Below, one piece after another: positions 2,838 through 46,722 of a stretch of 64,000 nt of DNA. A model generated the notes under the pieces. It was not told the origin of the DNA and searched no databases. It worked only from the letters and a program-made list of their open reading frames with translations. A program made the translations under genes and the position numbers. Numbering within the stretch: position 1 is the first letter of the stretch; the number at the start of each line of letters is the position of its first letter. Origin of the DNA: an uncultured Bacteroidales bacterium (GTDB taxonomy: Bacteria > Bacteroidota > Bacteroidia > Bacteroidales > Paludibacteraceae). The stretch covers positions 53,674 to 117,673 of the forward strand of contig ONGK01000008.1 in assembly GCA_900317345.1 (NCBI GenBank). Direction: 5' to 3'.

Positions 2838-2849
2838 TTGTGTCTTTTG

Positions 2850-2907
2850 TCTTTTAGTGAGCGTCGCGAACGGTCTTTTGTCTTTCTACTTTGAGCGAAG
2901 CGGTCTA
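2850..2907 (-). repeat. GACCG-type hairpin repeat between dnaN and the DUF4954 gene
   Basis: Read on the minus strand the gap holds AGACCG-CTTCG-CTCAAA and AGACCG-TTCGCGACG-CTC, separated and followed by AGACAAA words. The pattern GACCG, variable core, CT.AA is the same as in the longer arrays at 29231-29316 and 33566-33640. It lies between two genes of one operon. The function is unknown. Confidence 0.55.
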
Positions 2908-4032
2908 TTAATCATTCAGCAGCATCGGCATCAGCAACATGAGCACATCTTCGTTCTCCTCGTTCTCTGCCGGCAGAATCAGTCCTGCACGTGCCGGGTC
3001 TGCCAGTTTGAGTTGCACATCCGCCGAAGCAATCGACGACAGCAGGTCAATCAGGAACGGAGCCTTGAAACCGATGGCCATCGGCGTGCCGTTGTATGAG
3101 CATGTAATAACCTCTTCTGCGCTGGTCGAGAAGTCGATGTCCTGTGCAGAAATCTTTATCTGGTTCTCGCTCAGCGCCAGACGCAACTGTGCGGTACCGT
3201 TGTTCGCAAATACTGCCACGCGCTTGCAAGCGTTAATCATCGTCTGACGATCTACCGTCACGATGTTCTGGTTACCCTGCGGAATAACGGCATTGTAGTT
3301 CGGGAAACGACCCTCAATCTGACGGCATACCACAATCGTGTTGCCAAACTCAAAGCGTGCGTTCTTTGCGCCGAATGTCACTTTCACGTCCTCATCCTCT
3401 TTGGCCAGCAGGTTCTTGAGCAGACTTGCCGGTTTCTTCGGCAGGATGAAGCTGGCTGCCACGCCCGCTGCAACGCCGCTGTTCGTATAGCGAACCAGAC
3501 GGTGTGCATCAGTAGCCACCATCGTCACTTTATCCTCAGCGATGTCGAAGAAGATACCGTTCATCACAGGACGCAGGTCATCGTCTGCGGTGCAGAAGAT
3601 GGTCTTCTCGATGGCACTCTGCAGGATACCGGCCGGAAGCGTAAGCGTCTTTGCCTCTGCCTCAGCGCCTGGCATCTCCGGATACTCGTTGCCATTCACG
3701 CCTACGAAAGAGTACGTACCGTTCTGGCTTACCATATTCACAGCGAAATTGTTCTCGTCGATGGTGAATGCCAGCGGTTGCTCGCTGAACTCCTTGAGCG
3801 TCTCCAGCAGCAACTTGGCTGCGGATGCTACTTTGCCGGAACCTTCCACACCATCCACCTCCACTGCGGTGCGGATGGTTGTCTCGCCGTCCGAAGCCGT
3901 CAGTCTCAGCTCGTTTCCTACTAAATCAAACAGCACATCATCCAGGATGGGCAACGCATTCTTGTTGGCAATCACGCGGCTTACGGCCTGCAATTGTGAA
4001 AAGAGTTTTGAACTCGATACATTGAATTTCAT
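2908..4032 (-). CDS. dnaN: DNA polymerase III beta subunit (sliding clamp)
   Basis: The ring-shaped processivity clamp of DNA polymerase III. The 374 residues match the family length and show the three repeated clamp domains: MKFNVSSSKLFSQLQ opens domain 1, ATDAHRLVRY marks the end of domain 2, and the C-terminus ends in a clamp-like VLMLLMPMLLND. It is first in its transcription unit: a good promoter lies ~100 bases upstream and the terminator of the fcl operon lies beyond that. No dnaA, recF or DnaA boxes are nearby, so this is not an oriC neighbourhood. Confidence 0.97.
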   Translation of the reverse strand: MKFNVSSSKLFSQLQAVSRVIANKNALPILDDVLFDLVGNELRLTASDGETTIRTAVEVDGVEGSGKVASAAKLLLETLKEFSEQPLAFTIDENNFAVNMVSQNGTYSFVGVNGNEYPEMPGAEAEAKTLTLPAGILQSAIEKTIFCTADDDLRPVMNGIFFDIAEDKVTMVATDAHRLVRYTNSGVAAGVAASFILPKKPASLLKNLLAKEDEDVKVTFGAKNARFEFGNTIVVCRQIEGRFPNYNAVIPQGNQNIVTVDRQTMINACKRVAVFANNGTAQLRLALSENQIKISAQDIDFSTSAEEVITCSYNGTPMAIGFKAPFLIDLLSSIASADVQLKLADPARAGLILPAENEENEDVLMLLMPMLLND

Positions 4033-4128
4033 ATTCGTATAGTTTTTTAGTTATTTGTCTTCGTTTTTTTCGCGTCTTCTTCCTACGTCTCACGCGTACA
4101 CATGAATGCATACAACACATTCAGCCCG

Positions 4129-4159
4129 CAAAATTACAACTTTTTTTTCATATACGCAA
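4129..4159 (-). promoter_or_regulatory. Promoter of dnaN
   Basis: Read on the minus strand: TTG (4157-4159), 20 bases including an A8 run, then TAATTTTG (4129-4136). This matches the Bacteroidota primary-sigma consensus (TTTG, 19-21 bases, TAnnTTTG). The predicted transcript start is near 4122-4125, about 90 bases before the dnaN ATG. Confidence 0.8.
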
Positions 4160-4188
4160 GTTTTTTCTCTAAATATTTCGTTATTTAC

Positions 4189-4213
4189 GAAAAAAAGTGC
4201 CCGAAAGGACACT
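4189..4213 (-). terminator. Terminator of the gmd-fcl operon
   Basis: On the minus strand AGTG-t-CC, loop TTTC, GG-g-CACT (4196-4213) runs into a T7 stretch (4189-4195). It lies 42 bases after the fcl stop and just upstream of the dnaN promoter, separating the two units. Confidence 0.75.
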
Positions 4214-4254
4214 ATTTCTTCTTTCTTGCGCAACAATTCGGTCGAAAAGTCGTC

Positions 4255-5196
4255 TTATCGCTCTGCGCGCATCGGGTTTGTGAGAAAATCCTGATATGCC
4301 ATTCGGATACCGTCTTCCAACTCGGTCTTGTAGGTCCAGCCAAGCGCTTGGGCTTTGCTTACATCGAGCAGTTTGCGGGGCGTTCCGTCAGGACGCGATG
4401 CGTCCCATCGTATCTCGCCTTGGTAGCCTACAACTTTTGCCACAAGTTCCGTCAATTCCCTGATACTCAATTCCTTACCCGTTCCGGCATTCACCGTCTC
4501 GTTGCCCGAATAGTTATTCATCAGAAAAACGCAGAGATTCGCAAGATCATCTACATACAGAAACTCTCGCAGCGGCTTTCCGGTACCCCAACATGTGACG
4601 TACGGCGCGCCGCTCTCTTTCGCTTCATGAAAACGCCGGATGAGTGCTGGCAGCACATGACTGTGCTCTGGGTGGTAGTTGTCGTTTGGTCCGTAGAGGT
4701 TAGTCGGCATGACGGAGATATAATCGGTGCCGTACTGGCGGTTAAGAAACTCGCAGTATTTGAGTCCGCTAATCTTCGCCAGCGCGTACGCCTCATTCGT
4801 CTTCTCCAACTCGCCTGTCAGCAAGCAATTCTCTTTCATCGGCTGCGGAGCGAGACGCGGATAGATGCAACTTGAACCAAGGAACTCCAGTTTCTTACAG
4901 CCGTTTTTCCAGGCTGCGTGAATGACGTTCATCTCAAGAATCATGTTGTCGTACATGAAGTCCGCAAGGGCGTTCTGGTTCGCCACAATTCCACCTACTT
5001 TAGCAGCAGCAAGGAACACATATTCGGGCTTCTCAGCGGCAAAAAACGCCTCTACAGCCTCTTGGCGACACAAGTCCAGTTCCTTGTGCGTACGGGTGAT
5101 GATATTCGTATATCCCTGCCGCTGCAGCTCCCGCACGATGGCGCTTCCCACCATACCTCTGTGTCCCGCTACATATATCTTTGAATTTAAGTTCAT
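4255..5196 (-). CDS. fcl: GDP-L-fucose synthase
   Basis: An NADPH-dependent epimerase/reductase that turns GDP-4-keto-6-deoxymannose into GDP-L-fucose. It has the Rossmann start [15 protein letters not shown], the SSCIYP motif, and the catalytic YALAK (Tyr-x3-Lys). I chose the ATG at 5196 (MNLNSKIYV, 313 residues), which follows GGAAAG. The open frame runs on upstream to a TTG at 5247, but that 17-residue extension is not typical of the family. It follows gmd directly, so the two form the complete GDP-fucose pathway from GDP-mannose and probably feed the glycosyltransferases to the right. Confidence 0.95.
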
Positions 5197-5236
5197 CTTT
5201 CCATCATTGAGCGACTTTGCCGCGCTCATTCCATCA

Positions 5237-6310
5237 TTATTTAACAATGCCTTTCTCCAGATATTCAGCCAGGTTCACATGCTGGCTCCTTACTTTCAGC
5301 ATATCATGCTTCACCATCAGTTCGACCAGTTGCTCAAAACTTGTGCTTTGAGGATTCCACCCTAACTCACGCTTTGCTTTGCTCGGATCACCCAGCAGGT
5401 TCACAACATCCGTCGGCCGATAGAAGTCCGGACTCACAGCTACCACTACCTTTCCGGTCTTCACGTCAATACCTTTCTCGTCAATACCTTTGCCTTCCCA
5501 GCGAAGCTCGATACCCACATGCCGGAAAGCAAGCGTAGCGAACTCGCGTACGGTGTGTTGAACACCGGTAGCAATAACGAAGTCATCCGGCTTCGGCTGT
5601 TGCAGCATAAGCCACATGCACTCCACATAATCTTTGGCGTAACCCCAGTCTCGCAACGAGTCAAGATTACCCAGATACAAACAATCCTGCATACCCTGTG
5701 CAATACGTGCTGCAGCAAGGGTTATCTTACGTGTCACAAAGGTCTCGCCGCGGCGCTCCGACTCATGATTGAATAGGATTCCCGAGCAGCAGAACATACC
5801 GTACGCCTCGCGGTACTCTTTGATAATCCAATAGCCGTATAACTTCGCCACAGCATAAGGACTGTACGGATGAAATGGCGTCGTCTCATTCTGCGGCACT
5901 TCCTCCACTTTACCGTACAACTCACTGGTCGAAGCCTGATAGATACGGCATGTCTGGGTTAGATGGTTTGTACGCACAGCCTCCAGGATACGCAACACAC
6001 CTACGGCATCCACATCTGCTGTGAACTCCGGCGCGTCGAACGACACCTGCACATGACTCTGCGCAGCAAGGTTATAAATCTCATCCGGCTGAACCTGTCC
6101 CACCAGTTTGACCAGCGACATCGAGTCGCTCATATCCGCGTAATGCAAGTGAAAATGCGGTGTACCTTCCAAATGTGCGATACGCTCGCGGTAATCTACG
6201 GAACTGCGGCGAATGATGCCGTGGACCTCATAATCTTTCGACAGCAGGAACTCCGCCAGATACGATCCGTCCTGTCCCGTCACGCCGGTAATCAATGCTC
6301 TTTTTGCCAT
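5237..6310 (-). CDS. gmd: GDP-mannose 4,6-dehydratase
   Basis: An extended short-chain dehydrogenase that converts GDP-D-mannose to GDP-4-keto-6-deoxy-D-mannose. The sequence shows the Rossmann motif [13 protein letters not shown] at the start, NLAAQSHV, the active-site Ser/Thr ([11 protein letters not shown]) and [10 protein letters not shown] with the catalytic Tyr and Lys. At 357 residues it is full length. It is the first gene of the gmd-fcl operon, with a promoter 20-50 bases upstream. Confidence 0.97.
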
Positions 6311-6329
6311 ATAAATCCGAATTAGCGTG

Positions 6330-6361
6330 CAAATTTACTACAAAAAATTGGAATTACCAAA
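6330..6361 (-). promoter_or_regulatory. Promoter of gmd-fcl
   Basis: On the minus strand TTTG (6358-6361), 20 bases, TAAATTTG (6330-6337), with the gmd ATG ~17 bases after the box. The perfect inverted repeat ACCAA-ATAAA-TTGGT (6356-6370) overlaps the -33 element and could bind a regulator. Confidence 0.75.
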
Positions 6362-6570
6362 TAAATTGGTATAAAAATCAAATTATGCTCGCATAAATGA
6401 GAGTTTTTACCGGTTTATTTGGAGTTCGCAAAACTTTGCGAACGTAAATTCGGAGGGAACCCACCCCGTAGGGGAAGGGGCGTGCCGAATTTACAACAAA
6501 TTTTAGTTACTACATATTTTACAAGGCGGAGTCCGAAGTTACAACAAATTTTATGTTTTTCTCATTTTTA
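6362..6570. other. Non-coding gap with nested inverted repeats and a direct repeat
   Basis: No gene is visible in this part of the 397-base gap. It contains a 9-base palindrome (GTTCGCAAA at 6424-6432 with TTTGCGAAC at 6435-6443), then a 10-base inverted repeat (GTAAATTCGG at 6444-6453 with CCGAATTTAC at 6485-6494) enclosing a GC-rich CCCC/GGGG hairpin. The right arm of that repeat opens a 21-base direct repeat (6485-6505 and 6533-6553, one mismatch). This could be the remnant of a small mobile repeat or a structured RNA. Confidence 0.6.
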
Positions 6571-6602
6571 TTTGCATATATCCGAAAAAAGCCGTACCTT
6601 TG
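6571..6602 (+). promoter_or_regulatory. Promoter of the 6708 gene
   Basis: TTTG (6571-6574), 20 bases with an A6 run, then TACCTTTG (6595-6602) followed by CAGC. It is nearly identical over its length to the yceD promoter at 29119-29150. The predicted start is near 6607, leaving a ~100-base leader that contains the 11-base tandem repeat. Confidence 0.8.
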
Positions 6603-6624
6603 CAGCGTCTTTTATGCTTATAAA

Positions 6625-6679
6625 GACGAATTATTGACGAATTATTGACGAATTATTAACGAATTATTAACGAACTATT
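6625..6679 (+). repeat. 11-base tandem repeat, five copies, in a 5' leader
   Basis: Five head-to-tail copies of an 11-base unit: GACGAATTATT three times, AACGAATTATT, AACGAACTATT. They lie in the leader of the 6708 gene, 28 bases before its ATG. Copy number could vary by slippage. Confidence 0.9.
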
Positions 6680-6707
6680 TCTGTAATCACACTATAACCA
6701 CAGTATT

Positions 6708-7085
6708 ATGGCACATGTAGAACCATCACTCGCTTTTGACCACTTTAGTGGCAAATTATCTTCTAAGGAACGCATCGTTATGCGCACTCGCTACGGACGC
6801 ACACATGCGTACGCTTACAATCATCCGTACAAAGGCCCTATCTCGGAGAACCGGAAGCCTATCATAAGTGCTTTCACACAAGCATCAAAGCAATGCAAAC
6901 TTGAGATGGCCGACCCGCAGCGCCTCGCCTATTGGCAGACGCAATATGCGCAGTACACGAAAATGGCAAAACGCCATCCGGCAAAAGCCAACGAACGTTT
7001 CATCGGCACCAAGACGGACAAGTACTATGTCTCTCTCCGAGGCTTCATCATCGCCTCCCTCTCCGTCCAACTGAGAACAGCGTAA
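6708..7085 (+). CDS. Small basic protein of an undescribed family (copy 1)
   Basis: A 125-residue basic protein without signal peptide or membrane segment; I do not recognise a named domain. It resembles the 31432 protein most clearly at the C-terminus (SLRGFIIASL here, SFRGYIIARV there) and at the N-terminus (F-x3-SGKL here, I-x3-RGTL there), and more weakly the 29327 protein. It has its own strong promoter and repeat-bearing leader, and is a single-gene unit between gmd and a glycosyltransferase with its own promoter. The two relatives lie in the phage-like island, so this copy may have come from such an element. Confidence 0.75.
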   Translation: MAHVEPSLAFDHFSGKLSSKERIVMRTRYGRTHAYAYNHPYKGPISENRKPIISAFTQASKQCKLEMADPQRLAYWQTQYAQYTKMAKRHPAKANERFIGTKTDKYYVSLRGFIIASLSVQLRTA

Positions 7086-34508: not shown

Positions 34509-35708
34509 TTATTTTTTTATGTTATAGTTGGTACTATTGTCGATATAGGTGACGTTTCCGCCAACGATTTGAACAGGTTGAGATTGCTGGGCTTCCATTG
34601 CTCGACGCATTTTAATCATCTCTTTCTTCATCTCTACTAACTCGTCCACAACCTCATTTGGTTTGCTCGGCTCAATGTTTTTAGAGAAGGGAAGGGATTT
34701 GATATAGTCCTCCATGAATTTCCAATCGGGCTCGCCGGAGGGGGTTACAGGGAGTTTGATGCGAGACTTCTTCATTGCTTCTAAATCCCATTTTCTTCCA
34801 TAACAAAATCTATATTGCTCTTTCTCAATAAGCGTGCATATAAATATAGCGATATACCTATTGAGATTGAATTTCGGATACAATACATTAACATCATCGG
34901 TAGCCCAAAACTCCTTATCTTGATAGAAAGCATATCCGATTGAACCATTGTATGAAACCGTGATAGTATTAGCCTCGTGTAATTGTGAATCATTACCTAT
35001 ATACGATGATAATCCGTTATTAGAGTCTATAGCACCTATATAAGGGATATTACCATCTATCATATCAGCTTGTGTGAGGCGTTTACCTTTTCTAATGTCA
35101 AAAATGCTCTCGTAAACAAACCATTTCCAATCTTGCGTATTGAGTTTCATATTTTCGTGTTTTTGTGGGGTGGTGTCGTATTTTTGGAGCCAAACTTTTT
35201 GGGCTTTCTTGGGGAGTTGTGGGATGATTTGGTCTTTGACGAAATCTTCCATAAATTTCCAATCGGGGGTGTAGCCTCCGTTATCAAGTTTAATTGCAGG
35301 TAGTTGTATTTTTGTGTTTGCGACAACCTCCTTCTTATACTTACGACCAAAAGAGTAGCGGAATCTCTCCAAATCTAATACGGACACTAAAAAAGCGGCA
35401 TTATAAGGATTAAGATGTTCGTTATATCCTACAATTAAGGTAGTAGAGCCAATAAAATCTACAGGTTGATATAGACTATATCCCACAGAGCCTTGACCAT
35501 CTCCAATAAAGACAATACAATTACCACGAGAGACCAAGTTCTCTACGCGTTTTACATAGCGCATAACGCCATTATCGGACTTTTTAGCTCCAATATATGC
35601 GATTTCATCTCCGTCCTCTAATAATTCAGTAGCATTCGAGCACTTGCATTTCTGAGGAGGAAATAAATCTCCCACTCTAAACCACTGCCAATTACGTCTA
35701 TCTATCAT
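34509..35708 (-). CDS. Restriction-modification specificity (S) subunit
   Basis: A 399-residue DNA-recognition subunit with two target-recognition domains. The first starts NWQWFRVGDLF with YIGAKKSDNGV, the second DWKWFVYESIF with YIGAIDSNNGL; each ends with an IQLPAIK or IKLPVTPSG segment and a PDWKFMEDxxK helix as spacer. The C-terminus has a coiled-coil-like MKKEMIKMRRAMEAQQ and ends with the motif NVTYIDNSTNYNI. Two TRDs imply a bipartite target. It overlaps the methylase gene by 4 bases. Confidence 0.88.
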   Translation of the reverse strand: MIDRRNWQWFRVGDLFPPQKCKCSNATELLEDGDEIAYIGAKKSDNGVMRYVKRVENLVSRGNCIVFIGDGQGSVGYSLYQPVDFIGSTTLIVGYNEHLNPYNAAFLVSVLDLERFRYSFGRKYKKEVVANTKIQLPAIKLDNGGYTPDWKFMEDFVKDQIIPQLPKKAQKVWLQKYDTTPQKHENMKLNTQDWKWFVYESIFDIRKGKRLTQADMIDGNIPYIGAIDSNNGLSSYIGNDSQLHEANTITVSYNGSIGYAFYQDKEFWATDDVNVLYPKFNLNRYIAIFICTLIEKEQYRFCYGRKWDLEAMKKSRIKLPVTPSGEPDWKFMEDYIKSLPFSKNIEPSKPNEVVDELVEMKKEMIKMRRAMEAQQSQPVQIVGGNVTYIDNSTNYNIKK

Positions 35709-37453
35709 AACTCTTGCTCATTTTGAATTAAGAATGCAGCGTAATCCCGCAAGGTATTTATAAAATCACCCTCACATAAGTTACTATAGTCCGTTTCCAT
35801 ATATGCCTCTGCGCACCACTCGTCATCGGCACTTACTCTTTTTGTGATGGATTTGCCAATTTTAGTCTCTCGGTGGTCATAAAGTGAAAGCCATTCTTTT
35901 TCTATCTCATCCCACTTGTTCTTAATATCAACCCTGCCTACACCTTTGCGCTTCTCAAAGCCATCATCCTTAAAATAACCGAAGAAGGTTTCTTTGTCTT
36001 CGCTATGAGGACGCCCCAAATCAAATACCATACAGCAAGCAACCGCGCTTGCTCCCGGGTAGAACATTTCCGCAGGGAAAGAGAAGACAGCATCCAATGT
36101 ATGTTTGTCTAATAGTTGCTCCTTAAAATCGGCTATTATTCCATTGGTAGTAATCGCACAGGACATAGGAAGCAATGTAACTAAACGTCCTTTGCCTACA
36201 GTATCCGCAATGTACTTAACGAAGTAGAGCCCTTTCGATGGGTCAGTAGTAGCTTTGCCATATTTCTTCGCGAAAGATTCAGGGACTTGACTCTTTGATG
36301 CATTATAAGGCGGATTCATCAGTACTATATCTGCCTTTGAATCTTCTATCCATTTCTTTACGTCAAAACAGGAAGCGCAACGGATATTTGAGTTTCCATC
36401 ACCGTGTATGAGCATGTTTGTAGTAGAAAGTCCAAACACGTCCGGATCTTTCTCTATACCATAAATTTGATGCTTTTTAATTTCGGTGCGCTCTTTGTCC
36501 GTTTCACATTGATTAAGCGCCGTTGTCATAGCTTGTACCAAGAAAGTACCTGAACCGCAAGTGGGGTCTAATATGTGTGAGGTTTTACATACTCGTGCTA
36601 CCTTGCTCATGAAATGCGCTATATGGTTCGGAGTAAATGCCTGATTTTTATCCTCGCGCGCTACATATTTATTAAATGTAGTAAAGAAATAACTTAATAT
36701 ATCGTGCCCCTCACTTGTAGCAGCGTTGATATATGGTATGATTTTTTCTTGGATGTAATCAAGTAACTGTACAAAATTATCAGGATTGAGGTTTTCTACA
36801 TCATGATCTTCAAGAACCTTAGTTTGCAGAATAGCTATTTTTGTAGCCTTATCTGAACTATCGTCCTTAATCATTTTTCCAAGTATCTCTTTTATACCGC
36901 CTATTATAGAGCCCGTCGAATTTCCTTTATATGTAAGTCCATTTTTTAGAGCAAGCAAACACGTACCTACAAATTGACTGCGAATTTTCTCCTTTATTCC
37001 ATTATCATGTAGTTTGCGGTTTAGTTCGGCTGTGTTTTCAAGCACGGCAGATTTGTCATTGATATTCTGCGGTTTGAAGTACTCAGCGTATTCTGCTATA
37101 GTTTTGAGTTTTTTATCACTCAGAAGTTCAGCTTCTTTGCCTTTGGCTATTTGCCACACTTGAATTTTGTCGTTCGAGGTATTTGCCAAGATAGCTACAA
37201 TATTGTCGGCAATGTTGTATTCTCGCTCAAGAGCAACGTATGCAAATAGTTGCGCCTTATCTTCTTCCTTAAAGCGTTGCTTCGTCTCAATAAGGACAGC
37301 GGTTTTGCTCTCCTTATCGTAAAAGCGTATATCCAATTTGAAGTGTCCAGAAAGGGGACGCTCCAAAACTTGTGCGTAACTAAATTCTCCGTTTTCGATG
37401 TTGGAAGTGAGGAAGTCAAGTCCAACAGTCCGTATCATTGTAATTCTATCCAT
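35705..37453 (-). CDS. Fused restriction nuclease and N6-adenine DNA methylase
   Basis: A 582-residue protein from the ATG at 37453; the longer frame runs through the preceding lipoprotein gene and reads as Ser/Arg low complexity. N-terminal part (to ~150): LDIRFYDK and LIETKQRF form a PD-(D/E)xK-type site as in HsdR N-terminal domains. Middle and C-terminal parts: HsdM-like helical domain, then motif I DPTCGSGTF and motif IV NPPY. Carrying nuclease and methylase in one chain with a separate S subunit is the BcgI-like (type IIB/IIG) layout; no translocase HsdR is nearby. Confidence 0.87.
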   Translation of the reverse strand: MDRITMIRTVGLDFLTSNIENGEFSYAQVLERPLSGHFKLDIRFYDKESKTAVLIETKQRFKEEDKAQLFAYVALEREYNIADNIVAILANTSNDKIQVWQIAKGKEAELLSDKKLKTIAEYAEYFKPQNINDKSAVLENTAELNRKLHDNGIKEKIRSQFVGTCLLALKNGLTYKGNSTGSIIGGIKEILGKMIKDDSSDKATKIAILQTKVLEDHDVENLNPDNFVQLLDYIQEKIIPYINAATSEGHDILSYFFTTFNKYVAREDKNQAFTPNHIAHFMSKVARVCKTSHILDPTCGSGTFLVQAMTTALNQCETDKERTEIKKHQIYGIEKDPDVFGLSTTNMLIHGDGNSNIRCASCFDVKKWIEDSKADIVLMNPPYNASKSQVPESFAKKYGKATTDPSKGLYFVKYIADTVGKGRLVTLLPMSCAITTNGIIADFKEQLLDKHTLDAVFSFPAEMFYPGASAVACCMVFDLGRPHSEDKETFFGYFKDDGFEKRKGVGRVDIKNKWDEIEKEWLSLYDHRETKIGKSITKRVSADDEWCAEAYMETDYSNLCEGDFINTLRDYAAFLIQNEQEL

Positions 37454-37457
37454 GGTA

Positions 37458-37835
37458 TTATTTATTTTCGGGAATAGAATGGTTCCAGCAGCCGTGGTAG
37501 TCGAGGCAGCGGATGAGTTGGATAGCATCGGGGTAGCCGAGTTCGGCGGCATGGAGGAGCATGATATCGCCCTCCTCGACCGAGACGGTATGCAAGCTAT
37601 CGGGCCAACCGGGTTGCTGCGCAAGACGCGCTGCCGCACCGGTGACATACAGGCCTTTTGGGTCGTCGTCCTTATAGGCGACGGCGGCATAATAGCTGAG
37701 CGAGTCATGATTATGGAAAAGTGCGCAGCTGACCGGCACGGGTTGCGGCTCCGCCGACGTATCAACTTTTTTGTTTCCACACGTGCACGCAGCAAGCGTG
37801 CATGTAATTACAATAAGGAAAAGAGATGCTCTCAT
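37458..37835 (-). CDS. Putative lipoprotein
   Basis: A 125-residue protein with a signal peptide and lipobox (TLAAC, Cys at ~17), so likely anchored in a membrane facing the periplasm or surface. The C-terminal half (GDIMLLHAAELGYPDAIQLIRCLDYHG) looks like a single ankyrin-type repeat. It ends 4 bases before the nuclease-methylase start and may be co-transcribed with it, though a role in restriction is not expected. Confidence 0.72.
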   Translation of the reverse strand: MRASLFLIVITCTLAACTCGNKKVDTSAEPQPVPVSCALFHNHDSLSYYAAVAYKDDDPKGLYVTGAAARLAQQPGWPDSLHTVSVEEGDIMLLHAAELGYPDAIQLIRCLDYHGCWNHSIPENK

Positions 37836-38537: not shown

Positions 38538-39338
38538 TTATTCGTCCAAGTCGGAGGCTTTGCCTTGGTACTGCGGGTTGCGCTTCTCGATGAAAGCTTT
38601 GATACCTTCCTTATAATCTTCTCCGCGATAGACTTTTGTGCGGTAGGCGTTGATACGCTCGAAACTCTCGCTGGACATAGTTGACGCCGCCCGACTGAGG
38701 ATGCGGAACTGGCGTTTGATGGCGGAAACACTCCGTATAGAATTGCGTCTGAGCGGCGCGCAGAACTTCTCTTCCAGCAGCGCGGGCAGGTCTGCTTCCG
38801 GAGCGATATGGTTGACCAGACCGACGTTGAGGGCATCTTCTGCGGTAATAGGATTAGCGGTGAAGAACATCTCCCGTGCTTTGTTGATGCCGAGTTGGTT
38901 GATGAAGTGCATGATACCCGAAGCGTTGTAAGGGATGCCTATTTTCGCGGGTGTGATGGCAAAGGTAGCGGTGTCGGACGCTACAATCATGTCACAACTC
39001 AAACAGAGGTCACATGCGCCTCCCCACACGGTGCCGTTAGCGCACGCAATCACCGGAATAGGGATATCTTGCACTTTGCGAAGCAACTGCTCCATCGGCA
39101 CTTCGTACGCCAATGGGTCGGAGCCATCTATCGGCAGTTCGTGTATATTATGTCCGGCAGACCATACTCCGCGTCGGCACTCGGCCGAGATGATGATACC
39201 CACGCACTCTTCGGCGTAGGCTTTGTCGATGGCTGCAATCAGTTCGCAGCACATCTGCTCGCTCAAACAATTGAGATGCTCCGCATCCTGCATGGTGATG
39301 AAGGCAATGCGGTCATCCATTCTCAAATCAACAATCAT
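38538..39338 (-). CDS. Enoyl-CoA hydratase/isomerase-family protein, methylmalonyl-CoA decarboxylase-like
   Basis: A 266-residue crotonase-fold enzyme. The oxyanion-hole segments are WSAGHNIHELP and NGTVWGGACDLCLSCDM; the latter is closest in form to ScpB-type methylmalonyl-CoA decarboxylases, which make propionyl-CoA. A C-terminal EGIKAFIEKRNPQYQGK is typical of crotonases. It lies 59 bases after the SDR gene with no clear promoter, so it is probably read with the reductase operon, but a role in steroid metabolism is only a guess. Confidence 0.85.
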   Translation of the reverse strand: MIVDLRMDDRIAFITMQDAEHLNCLSEQMCCELIAAIDKAYAEECVGIIISAECRRGVWSAGHNIHELPIDGSDPLAYEVPMEQLLRKVQDIPIPVIACANGTVWGGACDLCLSCDMIVASDTATFAITPAKIGIPYNASGIMHFINQLGINKAREMFFTANPITAEDALNVGLVNHIAPEADLPALLEEKFCAPLRRNSIRSVSAIKRQFRILSRAASTMSSESFERINAYRTKVYRGEDYKEGIKAFIEKRNPQYQGKASDLDE

Positions 39339-39397: not shown

Positions 39398-40189
39398 TTA
39401 GTGCATGAAGGGCGTGAGCTTCTTCTGAGCGAAGAGGAGAAGCCAATCAGGTGTATGCTTGAGAAGCGGCGTAGAGAGCCAGTTGATGACTCCCGGCGTG
39501 TCGGCTTTCTTACCCTTAAACATCTTTTTGAGGGCGCGTTTGACGAGTTTCTCAGGCGGTATAGAGACCGTGAGTGCTACCGCCAGCTTGCGCAAGTTAG
39601 GCGCGAGTCCGAAGAGACCGGTATCGACCGCTCCGGGTGCCATAACGGTGATATGCACGTTATAGGGCTTGAGTTCATACCAAAGCGACTTGGAGAAGTT
39701 ATAGATGAAGGCCTTGGACGCATTATAGGTCTGAATACCGGGCATCGCCATCCATGCGGACATACTGCTCATATTGAGGATATATCCGTTTCGGCGCTCT
39801 TTCATATCGGCTGCGAAGAGACGTGTGAGTTTGGCAACCGTCATCACATGGAGCTGGAGCATGAGTTCGATACGCCGTATATCGGTGCTGCAGTAGTCAT
39901 TGAAGAAGAAGACGCCTGCGTTATTGATGAGGATATCGACCTGAAGATTGTTCTCTTTACACCACGCGTAGAGGTTCTCCGCAGCATCGTTGAGGCTGAG
40001 GTCAGCGAAATGCGCGATAGTCTTCACGCCGTATTTCTCTGCGAGGTCTGCTGCCACTTCGTCCAGCTCTTTCTGCTGATTGCTGACGAGCAGCAGGTCG
40101 CAATGATAATCACGTGCAAGCTGGGTGGCGTACTGAAGGCCGATACCCGATGAGGCACCGGTTACCAGAGCGAGCATCTTATTTTCCAT
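39398..40189 (-). CDS. Short-chain dehydrogenase, candidate 3-beta-hydroxysteroid dehydrogenase
   Basis: A classical SDR of 263 residues from the ATG at 40189. It has TGASSGIG for NAD(P), NNAG, and the catalytic Ser (MSSMSAW), Tyr and Lys (YNASK). A hydrophobic tail (TPDWLLLFAQKKLTPF) could hold it at the membrane. It overlaps the old-yellow-enzyme gene by 11 bases. Together with that gene and the 5-alpha-reductase homologue it matches the known gut-Bacteroidota set in which the SDR acts on the 3-oxo group of reduced bile acids; the substrate is inferred from context. Confidence 0.85.
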   Translation of the reverse strand: MENKMLALVTGASSGIGLQYATQLARDYHCDLLLVSNQQKELDEVAADLAEKYGVKTIAHFADLSLNDAAENLYAWCKENNLQVDILINNAGVFFFNDYCSTDIRRIELMLQLHVMTVAKLTRLFAADMKERRNGYILNMSSMSAWMAMPGIQTYNASKAFIYNFSKSLWYELKPYNVHITVMAPGAVDTGLFGLAPNLRKLAVALTVSIPPEKLVKRALKKMFKGKKADTPGVINWLSTPLLKHTPDWLLLFAQKKLTPFMH

Positions 40190-41498
40190 GTTTTTGTTCC
40201 TCCACAGACTTCTTCGCATTCGCCTCCAGGTCGGCTATCTCGCGCTGGATACGCGGAGCGATGGGTTCGCCATCCCGCAATACACACTCGTGGCACTTCA
40301 TCTCCTTGCTATACATACGTCCGACGCAGTAGTTAGAGCGTCCGCAACCGGCATGGTAGTGAGGATTATCCTGGATATGCTTGACGAAATCGGGGTCCTT
40401 GATGAGCACATGGGCAATCTGGAAGAGCTCGAAGCCTTCGTCCATGATCTGCTGGCAGTTATCGCCGGACTGCACGCCACCGACGTAGATGAGCGGAATA
40501 TTCGAATCCTTGAATGCCTCCTGGAAAATCTTCGCCTTATCCATGAAATAGAGCTCCTTGAACGGCTGTGTAGGCAGCATGAGTTGGTGCACACCCGGTA
40601 TGTTAAGCGCAGCCTTGAGCCACCAGAAGGACTTCATGTTCATATAGTGGGCGAGGGTCTTATAAGGCATCGCTCCACCGAGGATAGTCATCGGCGAGCG
40701 ACTGACAGTACCGCCGGAGAGGACGATGCCGTGCACATGATGCTTGGCAATCTCCTTAGCCACCTTGATACCTTCTTCTATATCCGAACCATGCCAGCAG
40801 TCATCCCACATATTAGTCTTGACGACGACTGCCATATCGTTACCGGCATGCGCCATAACCTCATCGAGCACCTCATTGAGGAACCGTACGCGATTCTCAA
40901 ACGAACCTCCGTATTGGTCATGCCGATGGTTGGTACGCGGGCTGATGAACTGGGAGATGAGGTATGCGTGTCCGGCATGTATCTCGACACAGTCGAAGCC
41001 ACACTCGCGTGCCCAATCGACAGCTTCGCCGAACTTCTTAACCATATCGTGTATCTCATTGACTTTGAGGCGACGATGGATAGTAGGGCTATAGAGGTTG
41101 AACCATGTGTCGGCGCTGACAGGCATACAGTGGCATGTATAGAAATGCGTCATGTTGCCGCAGTGACCGAGTTGGATAGACGCTTTCGCGCCCTCCGCAT
41201 GGATAGCATCGGTCAGTTTTTTCATATCCGGAATGATATCCGGGCGGACGTATAACTGTCCATCGAAAGAGACGCCACTGAGGTCCACAGCGCAGTACGC
41301 AACAGTGGTCATACCTACTCCGCCGCGTGCGACAGAGACATGATAGTCCTGCAGTTCCTGCGTGGGTTTGTTAGCACGCGCCATGTTTTCGAAAGCGGCG
41401 CTACGTATGATGCGATTCCGCAGCGTGATAGGTCCTAACTGGTAGGGGGTGAAGAGTTTCGGCTTATTCGCCGAAACAGTCGTTTTCTTTGTTGCCAT
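40179..41498 (-). CDS. NADH:flavin oxidoreductase (old yellow enzyme type), candidate 5-beta-reductase
   Basis: A 439-residue FMN TIM-barrel enzyme. Family marks: LFTPYQLGPITLRNRIIRSA at the start, the active-site HAGHAYLISQFISPRTN, DQYGGSFENRVRF, and a C-terminal cluster of four Cys within CGRSNYC...CHEC, reminiscent of the iron-sulfur site of dienoyl-CoA-reductase relatives. It reduces activated C=C bonds; in this gene order the delta4 bond of 3-oxo steroids or bile acids is the likely substrate. Its ATG overlaps the upstream stop as TAATG. Confidence 0.88.
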   Translation of the reverse strand: MATKKTTVSANKPKLFTPYQLGPITLRNRIIRSAAFENMARANKPTQELQDYHVSVARGGVGMTTVAYCAVDLSGVSFDGQLYVRPDIIPDMKKLTDAIHAEGAKASIQLGHCGNMTHFYTCHCMPVSADTWFNLYSPTIHRRLKVNEIHDMVKKFGEAVDWARECGFDCVEIHAGHAYLISQFISPRTNHRHDQYGGSFENRVRFLNEVLDEVMAHAGNDMAVVVKTNMWDDCWHGSDIEEGIKVAKEIAKHHVHGIVLSGGTVSRSPMTILGGAMPYKTLAHYMNMKSFWWLKAALNIPGVHQLMLPTQPFKELYFMDKAKIFQEAFKDSNIPLIYVGGVQSGDNCQQIMDEGFELFQIAHVLIKDPDFVKHIQDNPHYHAGCGRSNYCVGRMYSKEMKCHECVLRDGEPIAPRIQREIADLEANAKKSVEEQKHGK

Positions 41499-42307
41499 TA
41501 GTATATAAACGGTATAATTCTTTTCAGTTTCTTGCGGTCGAATTCATCGGGGAACTCCTCCTCGTATTTCTTATAGATAGCATGGCTGCGGGGAACAAGG
41601 TTGCAGCAGCTGAACCAGAAGAAGAGCAGTCCGGCGAGCGACCATGTGAGTATAGCCCATCCGAGCCACTCGGTTATCTCGCCCAGATAATTGGCACTGG
41701 TGACATATTTGTACATACCTTTCTTAGGCAAGTAATGGTTGGTGTCGCCCGGTTTGCGCAGATGGCGGATAACATGGTCGGAGTGCATATTGATGCACCA
41801 GCCGGCAAAGAAGATGATGGAGCCGACGATGAACTGCGGCGAGGTAATCCATGCCGAGGTGTACAATTGTGGATAATACTGCGGGGCGAGATGGAAGAGC
41901 CAGTAGCCCTGGATATATCCGTTGATGAGGTTCCACGCCACGGAGAGGAGCATGATAATCAGCGGCATCTTGCTATTACCCTTCAGGAGGAAGGGGAAGA
42001 TAAACGAGCGCTGGAAATAATGGAACTCAAAGAAGAGGAAGAAGAGCCAGTACGGCGCATTCTTGGTCACTCCTCCGTAGAGCGGGAAAGACTTGAAATA
42101 GAGATAGAGCATCACGAGGAAAACAGGGCACTCCATGAGCAGCCATCCCACTTTGTTACTGATAGCCGGTCCCCACTTCTCCGTACGCATCTTGCCATAA
42201 CCGGCATCGACGAAATAGAGGGACACGAACACAACCAGACCTACAAGAAACATGACATACAGCAGGTCGTAAAAGAAATCAATCGAATAAATGTTTTCTA
42301 TCGGCAT
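41498..42307 (-). CDS. Steroid 5-alpha-reductase-like membrane protein
   Basis: A 269-residue integral membrane protein with six or seven helices. The C-terminus carries the hallmark of the SRD5A family: NYLGEITEWLGWA followed by a HAIYKKYEEEFPDEFDRKKL-type segment and IIPFIY. That region binds NADPH in the human enzyme. It is first in the operon, followed by the flavin reductase and SDR. The likely reaction is 5-alpha reduction of 3-oxo-delta4 bile acids or steroids; fatty-chain enoyl reduction is the other known role of this superfamily. Confidence 0.9.
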   Translation of the reverse strand: MPIENIYSIDFFYDLLYVMFLVGLVVFVSLYFVDAGYGKMRTEKWGPAISNKVGWLLMECPVFLVMLYLYFKSFPLYGGVTKNAPYWLFFLFFEFHYFQRSFIFPFLLKGNSKMPLIIMLLSVAWNLINGYIQGYWLFHLAPQYYPQLYTSAWITSPQFIVGSIIFFAGWCINMHSDHVIRHLRKPGDTNHYLPKKGMYKYVTSANYLGEITEWLGWAILTWSLAGLLFFWFSCCNLVPRSHAIYKKYEEEFPDEFDRKKLKRIIPFIY

Positions 42308-42361
42308 AATTGTTTGTTATTTAGTTTCAACTCAACGAGTCATCAGGCACAAATTGCTCTG

Positions 42362-42392
42362 CAAAGGTACGAATAAATATTCGTATACACAA
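42362..42392 (-). promoter_or_regulatory. Promoter of the steroid-reductase operon with an internal palindrome
   Basis: On the minus strand TTG (42390-42392), 20 bases, TACCTTTG (42362-42369). Between the boxes lies a perfect inverted repeat TACGAATA-AA-TATTCGTA (42368-42385), which overlaps the -7 box by two bases. An operator there would block RNA polymerase. The predicted transcript start is ~48 bases before the ATG. Confidence 0.8.
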
Positions 42393-42398
42393 AAAATC

Positions 42399-43328
42399 TT
42401 AATAATCGGCAACTTTTTCTTGCTTTTGGCACACAAATAAGCCAAGGATGATTAATCCCATAGCCATCCATTTGACGAGCGGCATATGTTCTCCAAAGAA
42501 GAGGAGCATCCAAAAGGCGGTGAAAGCCGGCCGTATATTATTGAAGGCATTGGCCTGCGTGACACCAATCTTGCGCAAAGCGAAGCAGAAGAGGATGAAG
42601 GCCGTCACACTGGCGAAGATACTCAGATAACCTACGCACCCTAACGCAATATAAAATTGCGATTTGTCAATTGTCAATTGTAAATTGTAAATTGCTTGCG
42701 GTCCTTCTCGCCAGAACCAGACAGGAATGAAGAAGAAGAGGCTGACAAGCTGGGTATAGAAGACGAAGGAGAGGGAGGTATAGCGTGCGGGGGCTTTGCG
42801 CATCATGATGGAGTCGATGACAGCCGATGAGACCGCAGCAAAAGCAAGCAATATACCCCAATGATTACCGATGGCAAAGCTCCGGCTGCCGGCGAGCGTC
42901 AGTGCAAAGACGCCGGCTGTAGATATGAGTATACCGAGGATGTTATACTTCGTGACCCGTTCGCGCAGGAGTATAGCGGCGAAGATAGGGCTGATGAGCG
43001 GCGAGGTGGAGAGGAGCGTCTCGGCGATAGTAGGACTGTTGAGCGCATCGTACGTATAGGTCTCGAGCATGTAATAGAGGAACGGCTGGCAGAACCCGGC
43101 GACAAGGAACAAGGGCACATCGCGCCATTGGAGGCGCTGCAGGCCGAACAGCGAGTGGTTACGGCGGACCATACCGACGATGAACATCAGCAACACCGCC
43201 GGCACAAAACGCATCACAATAAGCGTGAAAGGCGGCAGCACCGCCAGGGCATACTTGACAGCAATACCGCTCACCGACCAGATGAGCATCGCCGCGATAA
43301 TGGCTATATGGGGAATAAACCGTTTCAT
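42399..43328 (-). CDS. EamA / drug-metabolite transporter family permease
   Basis: A 309-residue permease with ten predicted helices in two EamA repeats (ETLLSTSPLISPIFAAILL marks the end of the first, RPAFTAFWMLLFFGEHMP the second). The loop between helices 7 and 8 contains IYNLQLTIDKS, encoded by a heptamer microsatellite (42664-42694), an odd insertion in a conserved fold. Export of a small metabolite is likely; the substrate is unknown. Last gene of the GH3-HAD-PlsC run, overlapping PlsC by 4 bases. Confidence 0.88.
   Translation of the reverse strand: MKRFIPHIAIIAAMLIWSVSGIAVKYALAVLPPFTLIVMRFVPAVLLMFIVGMVRRNHSLFGLQRLQWRDVPLFLVAGFCQPFLYYMLETYTYDALNSPTIAETLLSTSPLISPIFAAILLRERVTKYNILGILISTAGVFALTLAGSRSFAIGNHWGILLAFAAVSSAVIDSIMMRKAPARYTSLSFVFYTQLVSLFFFIPVWFWREGPQAIYNLQLTIDKSQFYIALGCVGYLSIFASVTAFILFCFALRKIGVTQANAFNNIRPAFTAFWMLLFFGEHMPLVKWMAMGLIILGLFVCQKQEKVADY
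42664..42694 (-). repeat. Heptamer microsatellite inside the EamA gene
   Basis: Four 7-base units (plus strand TTGTCAA, TTGTCAA, TTGTAAA, TTGTAAA, then TTG). The same unit in the other phase (CAATTTA) makes the repeat at 44215-44242 in the intergenic region upstream of plsC. Here it is translated in frame. Confidence 0.85.
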
Positions 43329-44209
43329 TCAAGCGCAGCCGGCCAGGTGTTATGGGTAATACCGGCAAGGCGGCAAATGGTCTCGTGCGTGAGGCGTCTC
43401 AGGCGCTCGGTTTCGGCAGCCCTAGGCTGAGTAGTATCCGGATATATAGGTTTGCCGATGATGACCTGCGTGAGCGGTTCGTCTTTGGGTCCAAACCATC
43501 GCCAGATACCTGTTCTCGGGCGATAAGTGACAGCAAACGGAATGATAGGCTTGTTATACTTGTATGCCATGGTGAACGCGCCTTTCTGGAAGGGTCGCAG
43601 CGGCTTATACCAATCCCAGCGCTTGGCCTCGGGAAAGATATGGAACCAATAGCCGCGTTGGTTATATTCATCAAAAGCAGCATTGAAAGCCTTCATGGCG
43701 CTGAGTCCTTCTTCGGGTTCGGGGATAGGTATTCCGCCGATGATGCGCAGGAAAATCTGGTCCTTGGTTCGGAAATTCGGCGCGAACATCGGTATGCGTG
43801 TACGCGGCGCGGCATGGAAAGTGGTAAGGACCGATGCGCAATCGTGCCGATAGCAGTGATTGGAGATGGTGATGGCTCCTCGGCTGAGGTCGAACTGCTT
43901 CATCCATCGGCGCACGCCGCAGGACGAACGACGCCAGGTGTCTTCTCCCTCGATTTTCCATCGCAGCCCGTATTTGAGGCGCAAGACCCATCCGAAGATA
44001 CGCAGCACTATCGCGTAACCGCAGAAGACACGACATCTGTTGGCGAGCGACTCGTCGAAATAGGGGTAGTTAGCATCCACGGGTCCGAATTCACGGTCAT
44101 AGACTGGTTTATACAGACCTACATAGGGGTCGTCTTCTGGGTAGTCTATCGTCACTGGCGGCACATATGTCTCCTCCGTGACTTTCAAGTCTTTATATCG
44201 TTTGTTCAT
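43325..44209 (-). CDS. PlsC-type acyltransferase
   Basis: A 294-residue 1-acylglycerol-phosphate acyltransferase-like protein. It has the HX4D motif in SNHCYRHDCAS, a downstream RRWxxx-type region, IFPEAKR as the phosphate-binding block and KPIIPFAV. The first ~65 residues are acidic and Pro/Tyr-rich, longer than usual. The acceptor may be a lysophospholipid or a surface lipid. It lies in an operon with HAD and GH3-like genes. Confidence 0.87.
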   Translation of the reverse strand: MNKRYKDLKVTEETYVPPVTIDYPEDDPYVGLYKPVYDREFGPVDANYPYFDESLANRCRVFCGYAIVLRIFGWVLRLKYGLRWKIEGEDTWRRSSCGVRRWMKQFDLSRGAITISNHCYRHDCASVLTTFHAAPRTRIPMFAPNFRTKDQIFLRIIGGIPIPEPEEGLSAMKAFNAAFDEYNQRGYWFHIFPEAKRWDWYKPLRPFQKGAFTMAYKYNKPIIPFAVTYRPRTGIWRWFGPKDEPLTQVIIGKPIYPDTTQPRAAETERLRRLTHETICRLAGITHNTWPAALE

Positions 44210-44214
44210 CTATT

Positions 44215-44242
44215 GAATTTACAATTTACAATTTACAATTTA
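44215..44242. repeat. Heptamer microsatellite (AATTTAC)4 upstream of plsC
   Basis: GAATTTA then CAATTTA three times, in the 46-base gap between the HAD and PlsC genes. Same unit as inside the EamA gene. Confidence 0.85.
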
Positions 44243-44255
44243 CCATCTCCAATTT

Positions 44256-44930
44256 TCAATCTCCCATCAGCAGGAACTGCGCTCCAACGGCACGTGCACT
44301 GGCTCCGTCTTTCTCGTCACGGTCGCCGACAAAGAGCGTTGTTTTCGGGTCCGCGTGCAGCATATCAAGCACCTTCTGTGCACAGGGTTTAGACGGCTTG
44401 AGAGCACCGAGTTCCGGGGCGGAGACGAGTAACGCAAACTGCGCCTTATCGATGCCCAGAGCAGCCAGTTTCTCCTCGACGCTGCCGTAGTCGGAGTATA
44501 TAGCCATCTTCAGTCCGCGAGCCCTGCATTCATCAAGCAGAGCGAGGGCTTCAGGTCGGGCTTTGTGATGGCGTGCGATGAGGCGGACCATGGCGGGTAT
44601 ATAGACCATATGATACCATTTCGCTGCCACTTTGGGTCCCCACCAGTGTCCTCTTGCCATGGCGGCAAAAAAAGCATCAAAGAACTCCTGCTCGGTTGCG
44701 AACTGGACCTGGTGCGCTTCGCGTCTCGCCAACCGTTCGGACATGAGCAAGGGCAGGCACCACCAAAGCCGACGCACCATCCGATGCGCCAGTCCTTTCT
44801 TGTTATACAGCGTTCCATCCAGGTCAAAAACGACCGTTTGGATGTCATCACTTATCTTTGTCTGCTGATTTCTCCGCGCGTTTCTTGGCTCTTGTGGCGC
44901 GTCTTTGGGCTCTTTCTTTACGTCTTTCAT
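44256..44930 (-). CDS. HAD-superfamily hydrolase
   Basis: A 224-residue phosphatase-like protein: motif I VVFDLDGTLYN (nucleophile Asp), motif II in IYSDYG, motif III Lys in LGALKPSKP, and motif IV VGDRDEKD. The only good start, ATG at 44930, makes an 83-base overlap with the end of the GH3-like gene; the first 30 residues are a charged tail from that overlap (KKEPKDAPQEPRNARRNQQ). No ATG, GTG or TTG lies closer to the domain. Substrate unknown. Confidence 0.87.
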   Translation of the reverse strand: MKDVKKEPKDAPQEPRNARRNQQTKISDDIQTVVFDLDGTLYNKKGLAHRMVRRLWWCLPLLMSERLARREAHQVQFATEQEFFDAFFAAMARGHWWGPKVAAKWYHMVYIPAMVRLIARHHKARPEALALLDECRARGLKMAIYSDYGSVEEKLAALGIDKAQFALLVSAPELGALKPSKPCAQKVLDMLHADPKTTLFVGDRDEKDGASARAVGAQFLLMGD

Positions 44931-46722
44931 CTATCTTGTTAGCACCTTTGATTACACTCTCGCTGAACCGGTCGAAGCGGCTCTCCCAGCGTTGCAGCAT
45001 ATTAAACTTGGTTCGCCGTTTCTCATCTTGCATGAGCAAGTTGAATTTGAATTGTCCGTCGCGGAACCCATCCTTCAGGCACGCCGCCTTGAAACGCGCG
45101 TACGCATTAGAAAGGAGTATATGCGTCTCCGGTTCGTGCAAGCGGAAGGACTGGCGTTTGGATTCGTATTCGAGGTTGATATGCTGCAGTTTCTCATCCA
45201 CCACTTTGGTAAAGGCCTCTGCCTGTTCCTGGGTTATCGACTCATCTTCGAACTCATAGTAGAAATGATATTTCGACTCTTCGACGTCCGCAAATCCGAC
45301 GAAGAACTTGGTCTTGGTACCAGTCTCCTGTTCTGCTTCGTGTACGGCTTCCATGAACTGCGGTTCATAGAGTTTCTCTCCGGTGAGCGAAACGATGCCA
45401 TTCACTTTGGAGACCATATGTACGGTGGGGGTATTCTTGAAGAACCCGCCGACCTGAACCAGGTCGTTCATGTTATAGCGGAACAAGCCCGAATAAGTTG
45501 TCACATAGGCGCAGTAACGCTTACCCAGCTCCAGTTCGTCGATTTGGAGGAAATGCTTGCGCGGACTCTCGAGCTCGCTCTCCTCCACAAACTCATAGTA
45601 GTGGAACTGCGGGAAGAGAACCGACTCGTTCGTATCATCAAGCGAGAAACCGAAGCGGCATTCCGTGGCGATATATCCCAACTCCTGATAGAAGGTCTTA
45701 TCCCAGTTAAACTGGTCCATGTACTTATCCATGTAAATCTTCGTATTACCACATTTCCAAGTACTTAGATATTGCAGCCATGGCCAGAAGTCCTTCGGGT
45801 AGAGATGTCCCGTTTCGGCGAGTATTTTTCGCAACTCGGCAGCCCGTTCCGGTTTCGGGGACATGTATGCATCCAGTTCGTCGCGAATGTCGTAGGGGAT
45901 TTCGAAATCCTCGCTCAGCGTGCCTTTCTCGATATCCGTTATCATCACCTCCGTGTTCTCATTGAGCGCACGCAGCAATTCGAGAATTGTGGAAGGGTTG
46001 GCGGTGGCCCAAAGGGTGACGTCTCGATGCTGGAGGGCGAGACGCATGAGGGTATAGTTTCGTGCTCCGTAGTCAGGTATGGACATGACGCAAGCGGGCA
46101 CCGTATAATGCTTCTTGATGATGGGCGGTATGTCACGCACGAGTACGCCGCTCACGGCTCCGTAGAGAGTGCCATCCGGCGCATACCCTTCGCACTCCTT
46201 GCCGACCGTAGTAAAGATATGTCCGCCGAAGATACGGCTGCGGTGCTTCACAAAGTTCCAGGTCCAAATATGGCTCATCTTGCCATAGACATCCTTGAGG
46301 TACTTGTGGGTCATCGGAATCCATTTCGGTGCGCTGGTCGTTCCCGAAGTGGTGGCATACATGTCCGGTTTGCCCGGAAAAAGAACGTTCTCCTCACCGT
46401 TCTTATGCCGCTCGACGTACGGACGGAGTGTCTCGAAACTGTTATTCACCGGCACGTAGAGGCGGTAGAGACGGAAGAGATCCTCAGCTGTCGTAGCAGA
46501 GAGGATGCGGTCGAAATGGTGCTCTTTGCCGTAGACGGTATCTCGCGAGATGGTGAGAATATCGCGGAGCGTTTTCTCCGCCGTATGGCGCGGTTTGCGG
46601 CTCCAGAAACGCAGACGGATGGTCTGCATTCCGCCGACGATCATCAGCATGATATTGATAATCCAAGGGTACGGCAGCGCCCGTCCTTCATTGTCCAAAT
46701 AGGGTTTTATTTTGCTACTCAT
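44848..46722 (-). CDS. GH3-like acyl-adenylating enzyme
   Basis: A 624-residue member of the GH3 auxin-responsive family. The ATP/AMP site is visible: YATTSGTTSAPKWIPMT near residue 125 and later YVTTYSGLFRYNMNDLVQV and VSLTGEKLYEP. Plant GH3 proteins join amino acids to acyl acids; the role of the Bacteroidota form is unknown, but ligation of a carboxylic acid to an amine is implied. The C-terminal ~40 residues are Lys/Arg/Glu-rich and overlap the HAD gene. It starts the operon under the promoter at 46748-46778. Confidence 0.9.
   Translation of the reverse strand: MSSKIKPYLDNEGRALPYPWIINIMLMIVGGMQTIRLRFWSRKPRHTAEKTLRDILTISRDTVYGKEHHFDRILSATTAEDLFRLYRLYVPVNNSFETLRPYVERHKNGEENVLFPGKPDMYATTSGTTSAPKWIPMTHKYLKDVYGKMSHIWTWNFVKHRSRIFGGHIFTTVGKECEGYAPDGTLYGAVSGVLVRDIPPIIKKHYTVPACVMSIPDYGARNYTLMRLALQHRDVTLWATANPSTILELLRALNENTEVMITDIEKGTLSEDFEIPYDIRDELDAYMSPKPERAAELRKILAETGHLYPKDFWPWLQYLSTWKCGNTKIYMDKYMDQFNWDKTFYQELGYIATECRFGFSLDDTNESVLFPQFHYYEFVEESELESPRKHFLQIDELELGKRYCAYVTTYSGLFRYNMNDLVQVGGFFKNTPTVHMVSKVNGIVSLTGEKLYEPQFMEAVHEAEQETGTKTKFFVGFADVEESKYHFYYEFEDESITQEQAEAFTKVVDEKLQHINLEYESKRQSFRLHEPETHILLSNAYARFKAACLKDGFRDGQFKFNLLMQDEKRRTKFNMLQRWESRFDRFSESVIKGANKIDERRKERAQRRATRAKKRAEKSADKDK

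Follow-up and report, generated by a model that had tools for sequence, protein, structure and literature searches.

Passages of published work, to which our statements on the literature refer, describe Parabacteroides merdae, Odoribacter laneus and Bacteroides dorei as converting 3-oxo-delta4-lithocholic acid (3-oxo-delta4-LCA) to isoallolithocholic acid (isoalloLCA), and twenty other Bacteroidota strains as converting it to 3-oxo-alloLCA (PMC10382948). The same review states that disruption of the 5-alpha-reductase (5AR) gene in P. merdae stops the allo products, and that 5AR is clustered with a predicted 3-beta-hydroxysteroid dehydrogenase (3-beta-HSDH) and with an NADH:flavin oxidoreductase hypothesised to be the 5-beta-reductase (5BR). 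Bacteroidota may run 5BR in reverse from 5-beta bile acids (PMC9645264). IsoalloLCA is described as affecting regulatory T cells and Gram-positive pathogens (PMC10382948 among reviews) and has been found in the cow large intestine (PMC9750977). We analysed a related three-gene locus in a 64,000-nucleotide stretch of DNA, here called the window (contig ONGK01000008.1 of assembly GCA_900317345.1, positions 53,674 to 117,673), from an uncultured Bacteroidales bacterium of the Paludibacteraceae. The locus encodes a predicted SRD5A-type membrane steroid 5-alpha-reductase (5AR), an old-yellow-enzyme-type FMN reductase (OYE) and a short-chain dehydrogenase/reductase (SDR).

We suggest, with a probability of roughly three in four, that these genes form a steroid A-ring redox operon like the 5AR-5BR operons of gut Bacteroidota, carrying in third position an SDR of a family that we call F3. 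The suggestion draws on sequence comparison and protein models: gene families, gene order, a promoter-like site, synteny, co-occurrence, model folds and conserved catalytic residues were all observed. The operon is a variant of an already known, widespread system. In the Parabacteroides merdae and Bacteroides cluster of the isoalloLCA pathway the first two genes are homologous to those of the window, adjacent, on the same strand and in the same order, but the third gene belongs to another SDR family, F2.

The 5AR and OYE genes and their layout

The 5AR gene (41498-42307, minus strand) encodes 269 amino acids, with NYLGEITEWLGWA within the protein and RIIPFIY at its C-terminus. It matches Pfam Steroid_dh (PF02544) with E 3.4e-40 and 137.9 bits, above the gathering cut-off of 22.6. 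The closest solved proteins by sequence are the bacterial steroid 5-alpha-reductase PbSRD5A (PDB 7c83, E 2.2e-57) and human SRD5A2 (7bw1, E 3.9e-40). The AlphaFold (AF2) model (mean pLDDT 89.7) has the SRD5A membrane fold, and these two structures were its sole matches at E <=0.001 (TM to target 0.92 for 7c83 and 0.87 for 7bw1). The Glu and Tyr to which catalysis is ascribed in PbSRD5A and human SRD5A2 (PMC7815742, PMC7591894) are kept as E59 and Y97 (E54 and Y87 of PbSRD5A), likewise in 157/157 distinct homologues. Eight of the ten named NADPH contacts in transmembrane helices TM5-7 of PbSRD5A are identical in the window protein (N173, D177, R184, N206, Y207, E210, N236 and R240 in PbSRD5A numbers), as placed by eye on the 5AR/7c83 sequence alignment. 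The window 5AR differs from PbSRD5A and SRD5A2 in having S233 for T219, and in two further residues that are weighed below.

The OYE gene (40179-41498, minus strand; 439 amino acids) matches Pfam Oxidored_FMN and is predicted to encode the 5BR, or a delta4-dehydrogenase when acting in reverse. The protein is modelled as a YqjM-like TIM barrel (1z41, TM to target 0.88), and the HxxHxY active-site stretch (H174, H177 and Y179), which we take to be catalytic, is present in 113/113 homologues. C385, C391 and C402, in a C-terminal motif at residues 385-405, are invariant in the same 113; this three-Cys stretch presumably resembles the iron-sulphur site of longer OYE relatives. Position 387 is His in 96/113 homologues; the window protein and the remaining 17 have Arg there. 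The bile acid reductase BaiCD (NF041087) has an Oxidored_FMN domain and a similar predicted role, but OYE reaches 178.1 bits against a cut-off of 825, with the best stretch at profile positions 3-255 of 642, and by this cut-off is not BaiCD.

The initial annotation had described one promoter followed by SRD5A-like, OYE and SDR genes joined by TAATG and by an 11-base overlap, and coordinates and sequence bear this out. The 5AR stop and the OYE start have one base in common (TAATG at 41496-41500), and the SDR start at 40189 overlaps the OYE end at 40179 by exactly 11 bases. The annotation had also proposed a search against the Parabacteroides/Odoribacter enzymes. 5AR and OYE are 56% and 51% identical to the adjoining pair of L233, a locus of inferred Parabacteroides.

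A promoter-like site of the Bacteroidota type, TTG-N20-TACCTTTG, lies upstream of 5AR at 42362-42392 (minus strand). We scanned for TTG-N18..22-TAnnTT[T/A]G within 170 bases upstream of 5AR and found a site of this type in the window, in L119 and in all 11 of the other 5AR-carrying loci of the genus; it was found in 0/12 of the remaining family or order loci in the same listing. A second match to the pattern in L068 is probably due to chance. Between the promoter elements lies TACGAATATTTATTCGTA, a perfect 18-base palindrome (42368-42385). We set it aside as a conserved operator: of the 11 same-genus loci, one (L060) has a near-identical copy and the other ten do not. The genome search for it gave no further exact copy and two copies with two mismatches.

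Conservation of the pair and the two SDR families

The neighbours of 5AR were surveyed in 80 stretches taken around 5AR matches, with varying upstream and downstream extent. An OYE homologue stands downstream of 5AR on the same strand in 50/80 (one is cut by a contig end), and a few of these homologues lie 0.2-2.4 kb from 5AR. A second set comprised 166 stretches with 157 distinct 5AR proteins, chosen around 5AR matches and not at random; a few of its named loci repeat unnamed ones. Genes were called on the same strand up to 7 kb downstream of 5AR, with thresholds of 150 bits for OYE and 90 bits for F2 and F3. OYE stands behind 5AR in 127/166 stretches, followed by F3, by F2, or by F3 then F2, while 21 have OYE alone; F2 without OYE was seen in three. 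The pairs include named Parabacteroides, Odoribacter, Bacteroides, Alistipes, Barnesiella and Coprobacter. Among the matches listed in the 5AR scan of named sequences (best 80) were Parabacteroides, Bacteroides, Odoribacter, Coprobacter, Barnesiella, Alistipes, Phocaeicola, Paludibacteraceae and others.

5AR matches were found in 12/13 genomes of the window's genus, 65/150 of its family (61 of them strong) and 71/295 of its order. They were also found in 20/38 genomes of the genus holding G253, taken to be Parabacteroides from the 94% 5AR identity to P. massiliensis. Co-occurrence was counted in the 150 family genomes at thresholds of our own choice (5AR >=277 bits, OYE >=299 bits, F3 E <=1e-60, F2 >=150 bits). 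The counts, in the order both, only the first, only the second and neither, were 59/2/5/84 for 5AR and OYE, 57/4/4/85 for 5AR and F3, and 7/54/17/72 for 5AR and F2. These counts indicate that F3 is part of the set in the window's family, also in genomes where it lies elsewhere, and that F2 is not.

The trees suggest some movement of these genes. On the 5AR tree two genomes of another family, G229 and G332, are nested within the window's genus with starred support; on the OYE tree they sit among rows of that genus and of two further genera of the family. This placement points to transfer of the operon between families. The two trees conflict elsewhere, again with starred support: by its 5AR, L076 clusters with L070, L072 and L191, and by its OYE with L120. 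Exchange of OYE within operons is therefore probable.

Two unrelated SDR families, F2 and F3, with different closest families, stand behind the 5AR-OYE pair across loci. The window SDR, a predicted hydroxysteroid dehydrogenase (39398-40189 from an inner ATG, or 39398-40219; minus strand), matches adh_short and belongs to F3. It is 44% identical to the Odoribacter F3, and 22% to the F2 of both Parabacteroides and Odoribacter. An F2 orthologue was sought in the window genome and was not found (best F2 match 26% identity), and F2 at 150 bits was found in 0/13 same-genus genomes, with a single weak match of 92 bits in G142. The initial annotation had matched the locus to the known 5AR, 5BR and 3-beta-HSDH set, and the match stands in order and sequence for the first two genes and fails for the third. 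Because the window SDR is not an orthologue of F2, its naming as the known 3-beta-HSDH and the prediction of isoalloLCA as end product are unproven.

All three named Parabacteroides loci (L139-L141) have F2 without F3 behind OYE; six further stretches of inferred Parabacteroides have OYE and F2 in five cases and neither in L236 (6 kb covered). F2 without F3 was found in 17/18 Bacteroides-titled stretches (two of these show no OYE), the remaining one, L176, having both. The reported 3-beta-HSDH of Parabacteroides and Bacteroides thus fits F2 by position, on the basis of synteny and reviews, since named Parabacteroides and 17/18 titled Bacteroides loci show F2 alone. Alistipes-titled stretches have F3 without F2 in 11/13 cases (L170 has both and L205 is cut); 8 of these 11 span 7 kb downstream, and 3 end too soon for excluding F2. 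The Alistipes type resembles the window in this respect, but its F3 shares 33-38% identity with the window SDR across the four Alistipes-titled rows compared. Neighbouring F3 and F2 genes, in that order, are seen in Odoribacter L145, Coprobacter L198, Sanguibacteroides L148 and Barnesiella L195, L196 and L210; Coprobacter-titled L143 has F2 only. The four-gene cluster shares the order 5AR, OYE, F3 with the window, where F2 was found neither in the operon nor in the genome.

F3 is also seen in other settings. The window genome has an F3 paralogue (41% identity) on another contig. The one same-genus genome without 5AR and OYE, G070, keeps an F3-type SDR (50% identity). Tandem F3 copies occur downstream of OYE in L060, L068, L069 and L120, the second copy being 52-57% identical to the window SDR, and they are possibly a pair of opposite stereochemistry. 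Prediction of F3 function from the nearest solved structure was set aside: the best matches were generic reductases, from which the stereochemistry does not follow, and the same was true of F2. In review passages we found no functional assignment of F3, and primary papers or their supplements may already assign it.

Neighbouring genes

A crotonase-fold gene (38538-39338, minus strand) follows the SDR after a gap. The initial annotation had proposed that it could extend the pathway, and we reject this role: the protein scores 299.2 bits as a methylmalonyl-CoA decarboxylase (NF008506, cut-off 257), and an ECH match near 5AR was found in 1/80 stretches (L074, opposite strand, about 5 kb away). 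The gene lies outside the conserved set and is a chance neighbour of the operon. It may be co-transcribed with it; no minus-strand terminator-like site was listed between the SDR and the crotonase gene, and a strong one lies at 38030-38009. Further along, two genes at 34509-37795 (minus strand) resemble, by eye, a type I restriction-modification pair (specificity subunit and N6-DNA methylase).

Upstream of the operon, at 42399-46722 (minus strand), genes for a GH3-family protein, an HAD phosphatase, an acyltransferase and an EamA transporter stand in line. The same order was found in L059-L061 and partly in L064, among the 80 stretches with about 4 kb upstream covered. In Parabacteroides massiliensis L139 a membrane-fusion protein, an RND efflux pump and a response regulator (1819-7011) lie directly upstream of 5AR. 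A 447-amino-acid family is found just upstream of 5AR in L149, L166 and L212 (two Bacteroides and one Phocaeicola), the L166 member being a citrate synthase.

Predicted reactions and alternative readings

Substrates, reaction directions, and the site and face at which the SDR acts are predicted here. With NADPH, the membrane 5AR would saturate the C4-C5 double bond of 3-oxo-delta4 bile acids or steroids; reduction at the alpha face would yield the flat 5-alpha (allo) form. OYE/5BR would reduce the same double bond to the 5-beta form when running forward; backwards, it would convert 3-oxo-5-beta bile acids to their 3-oxo-delta4 forms, feeding 5AR. The F3 SDR would interconvert keto and hydroxy groups, most likely at C3, on one face or the other. 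With an F3 SDR in the operon, the isoallo product proposed initially is unsupported, and an allo or 3-oxo-allo product is at least as likely.

Several observations weigh against the steroid operon. In 36/166 stretches 5AR has no other gene of the set downstream; 17 of these form a 34-41% identical group and others are cut by contig ends, and some such loci are real, as in L236. 5AR, OYE and F3 lie apart in some family genomes, and the genomes are related, so that the very small Fisher values overstate independence. A search of the window genome (96% complete) for bile salt hydrolase (PF02275) gave no match, and the organism would thus need neighbours for free bile acids. In the protein itself, I244 replaces the NADPH contact H230; among disease-related human variants tested, significant activity loss was reported for all but one, at the His equivalent to H230 (PMC7815742). 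The window 5AR also has M58 in place of the Gln of the QEY motif, called highly conserved among the SRD5As studied (PMC7815742). The same Met is found in 157/157 distinct Bacteroidales homologues collected, Parabacteroides included, and M58 therefore probably does not abolish activity. It appears to be a trait of the subclade and not a defining one, since Parabacteroides, a genus with genetic evidence for 5AR according to a review, has it too.

One alternative concerns the third gene only and is compatible with the steroid operon: F3 could stand in for F2 as a non-orthologous enzyme of like stereochemistry, i.e., a 3-beta-HSDH making isoallolithocholic acid. Both families are SDRs in the same operon position, and F3 occurs without F2 in most Alistipes-titled stretches and in the window's genus. 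The 22% identity and the different closest families speak against it, and the side-by-side occurrence of F3 and F2 in L145, L198, L195, L196 and L210 argues for different jobs. A review table lists Alistipes under 5-alpha-reductase and not under 3-beta-HSD, a weak point as the same table omits the isoalloLCA maker B. dorei from its 3-beta-HSD row (PMC12789469). Overall we regard this replacement as possible, on the unlikely side.

Substrate is the sole difference in a second alternative, in which the operon would act mainly on other ring enones, such as dietary plant sterols, host hormones or microbial sterols, and not on bile acids. PbSRD5A reduces progesterone (PMC7815742), and the result of the bile salt hydrolase search also fits; however, many named relatives are known gut genera or carry gut-sample titles (some titles give no source), and the closest studied cluster acts on bile acids (PMC10382948). 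We consider such a preference rather unlikely. That the genes encode fatty-acid or isoprenoid reductases (enoyl-CoA or polyprenol type) with no steroid link is highly improbable, for although the very-long-chain enoyl-CoA reductase 22of also matches 5AR (E 4.5e-9), the steroid 5-alpha-reductases match far better by sequence and alone pass E 0.001 by model.

Within the steroid A-ring operon, we tentatively propose, as a doubtful but concrete possibility, that F3 is a previously unrecognised hydroxysteroid dehydrogenase family, most simply of the 3-alpha type. Together with reverse 5BR and 5AR it would convert 3-alpha-hydroxy-5-beta to 3-alpha-hydroxy-5-alpha (allo) bile acids, and the SDR content of a cluster would predict its product. 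Where F3 and F2 occur together (Odoribacter, Barnesiella), a single operon would encode the whole pathway from lithocholic acid (LCA) to isoalloLCA, F2-only clusters would lead to iso-allo products, and F3-only clusters (Alistipes and the window's genus) to allo products. Against this rule, P. merdae and B. dorei, whose genera have F2 without F3 in our data, are reported to convert LCA itself to isoalloLCA (PMC12916643), so that in F2-type genera the 3-alpha-HSDH must come from another gene.

If SDR content sets the isomer, gene-based prediction of isoalloLCA production from every 5AR cluster would fail for F3-only clusters, among them those in Alistipes and the window's family. F3 shows a tight link with both 5AR and 5BR and is a concrete candidate enzyme family for assay.

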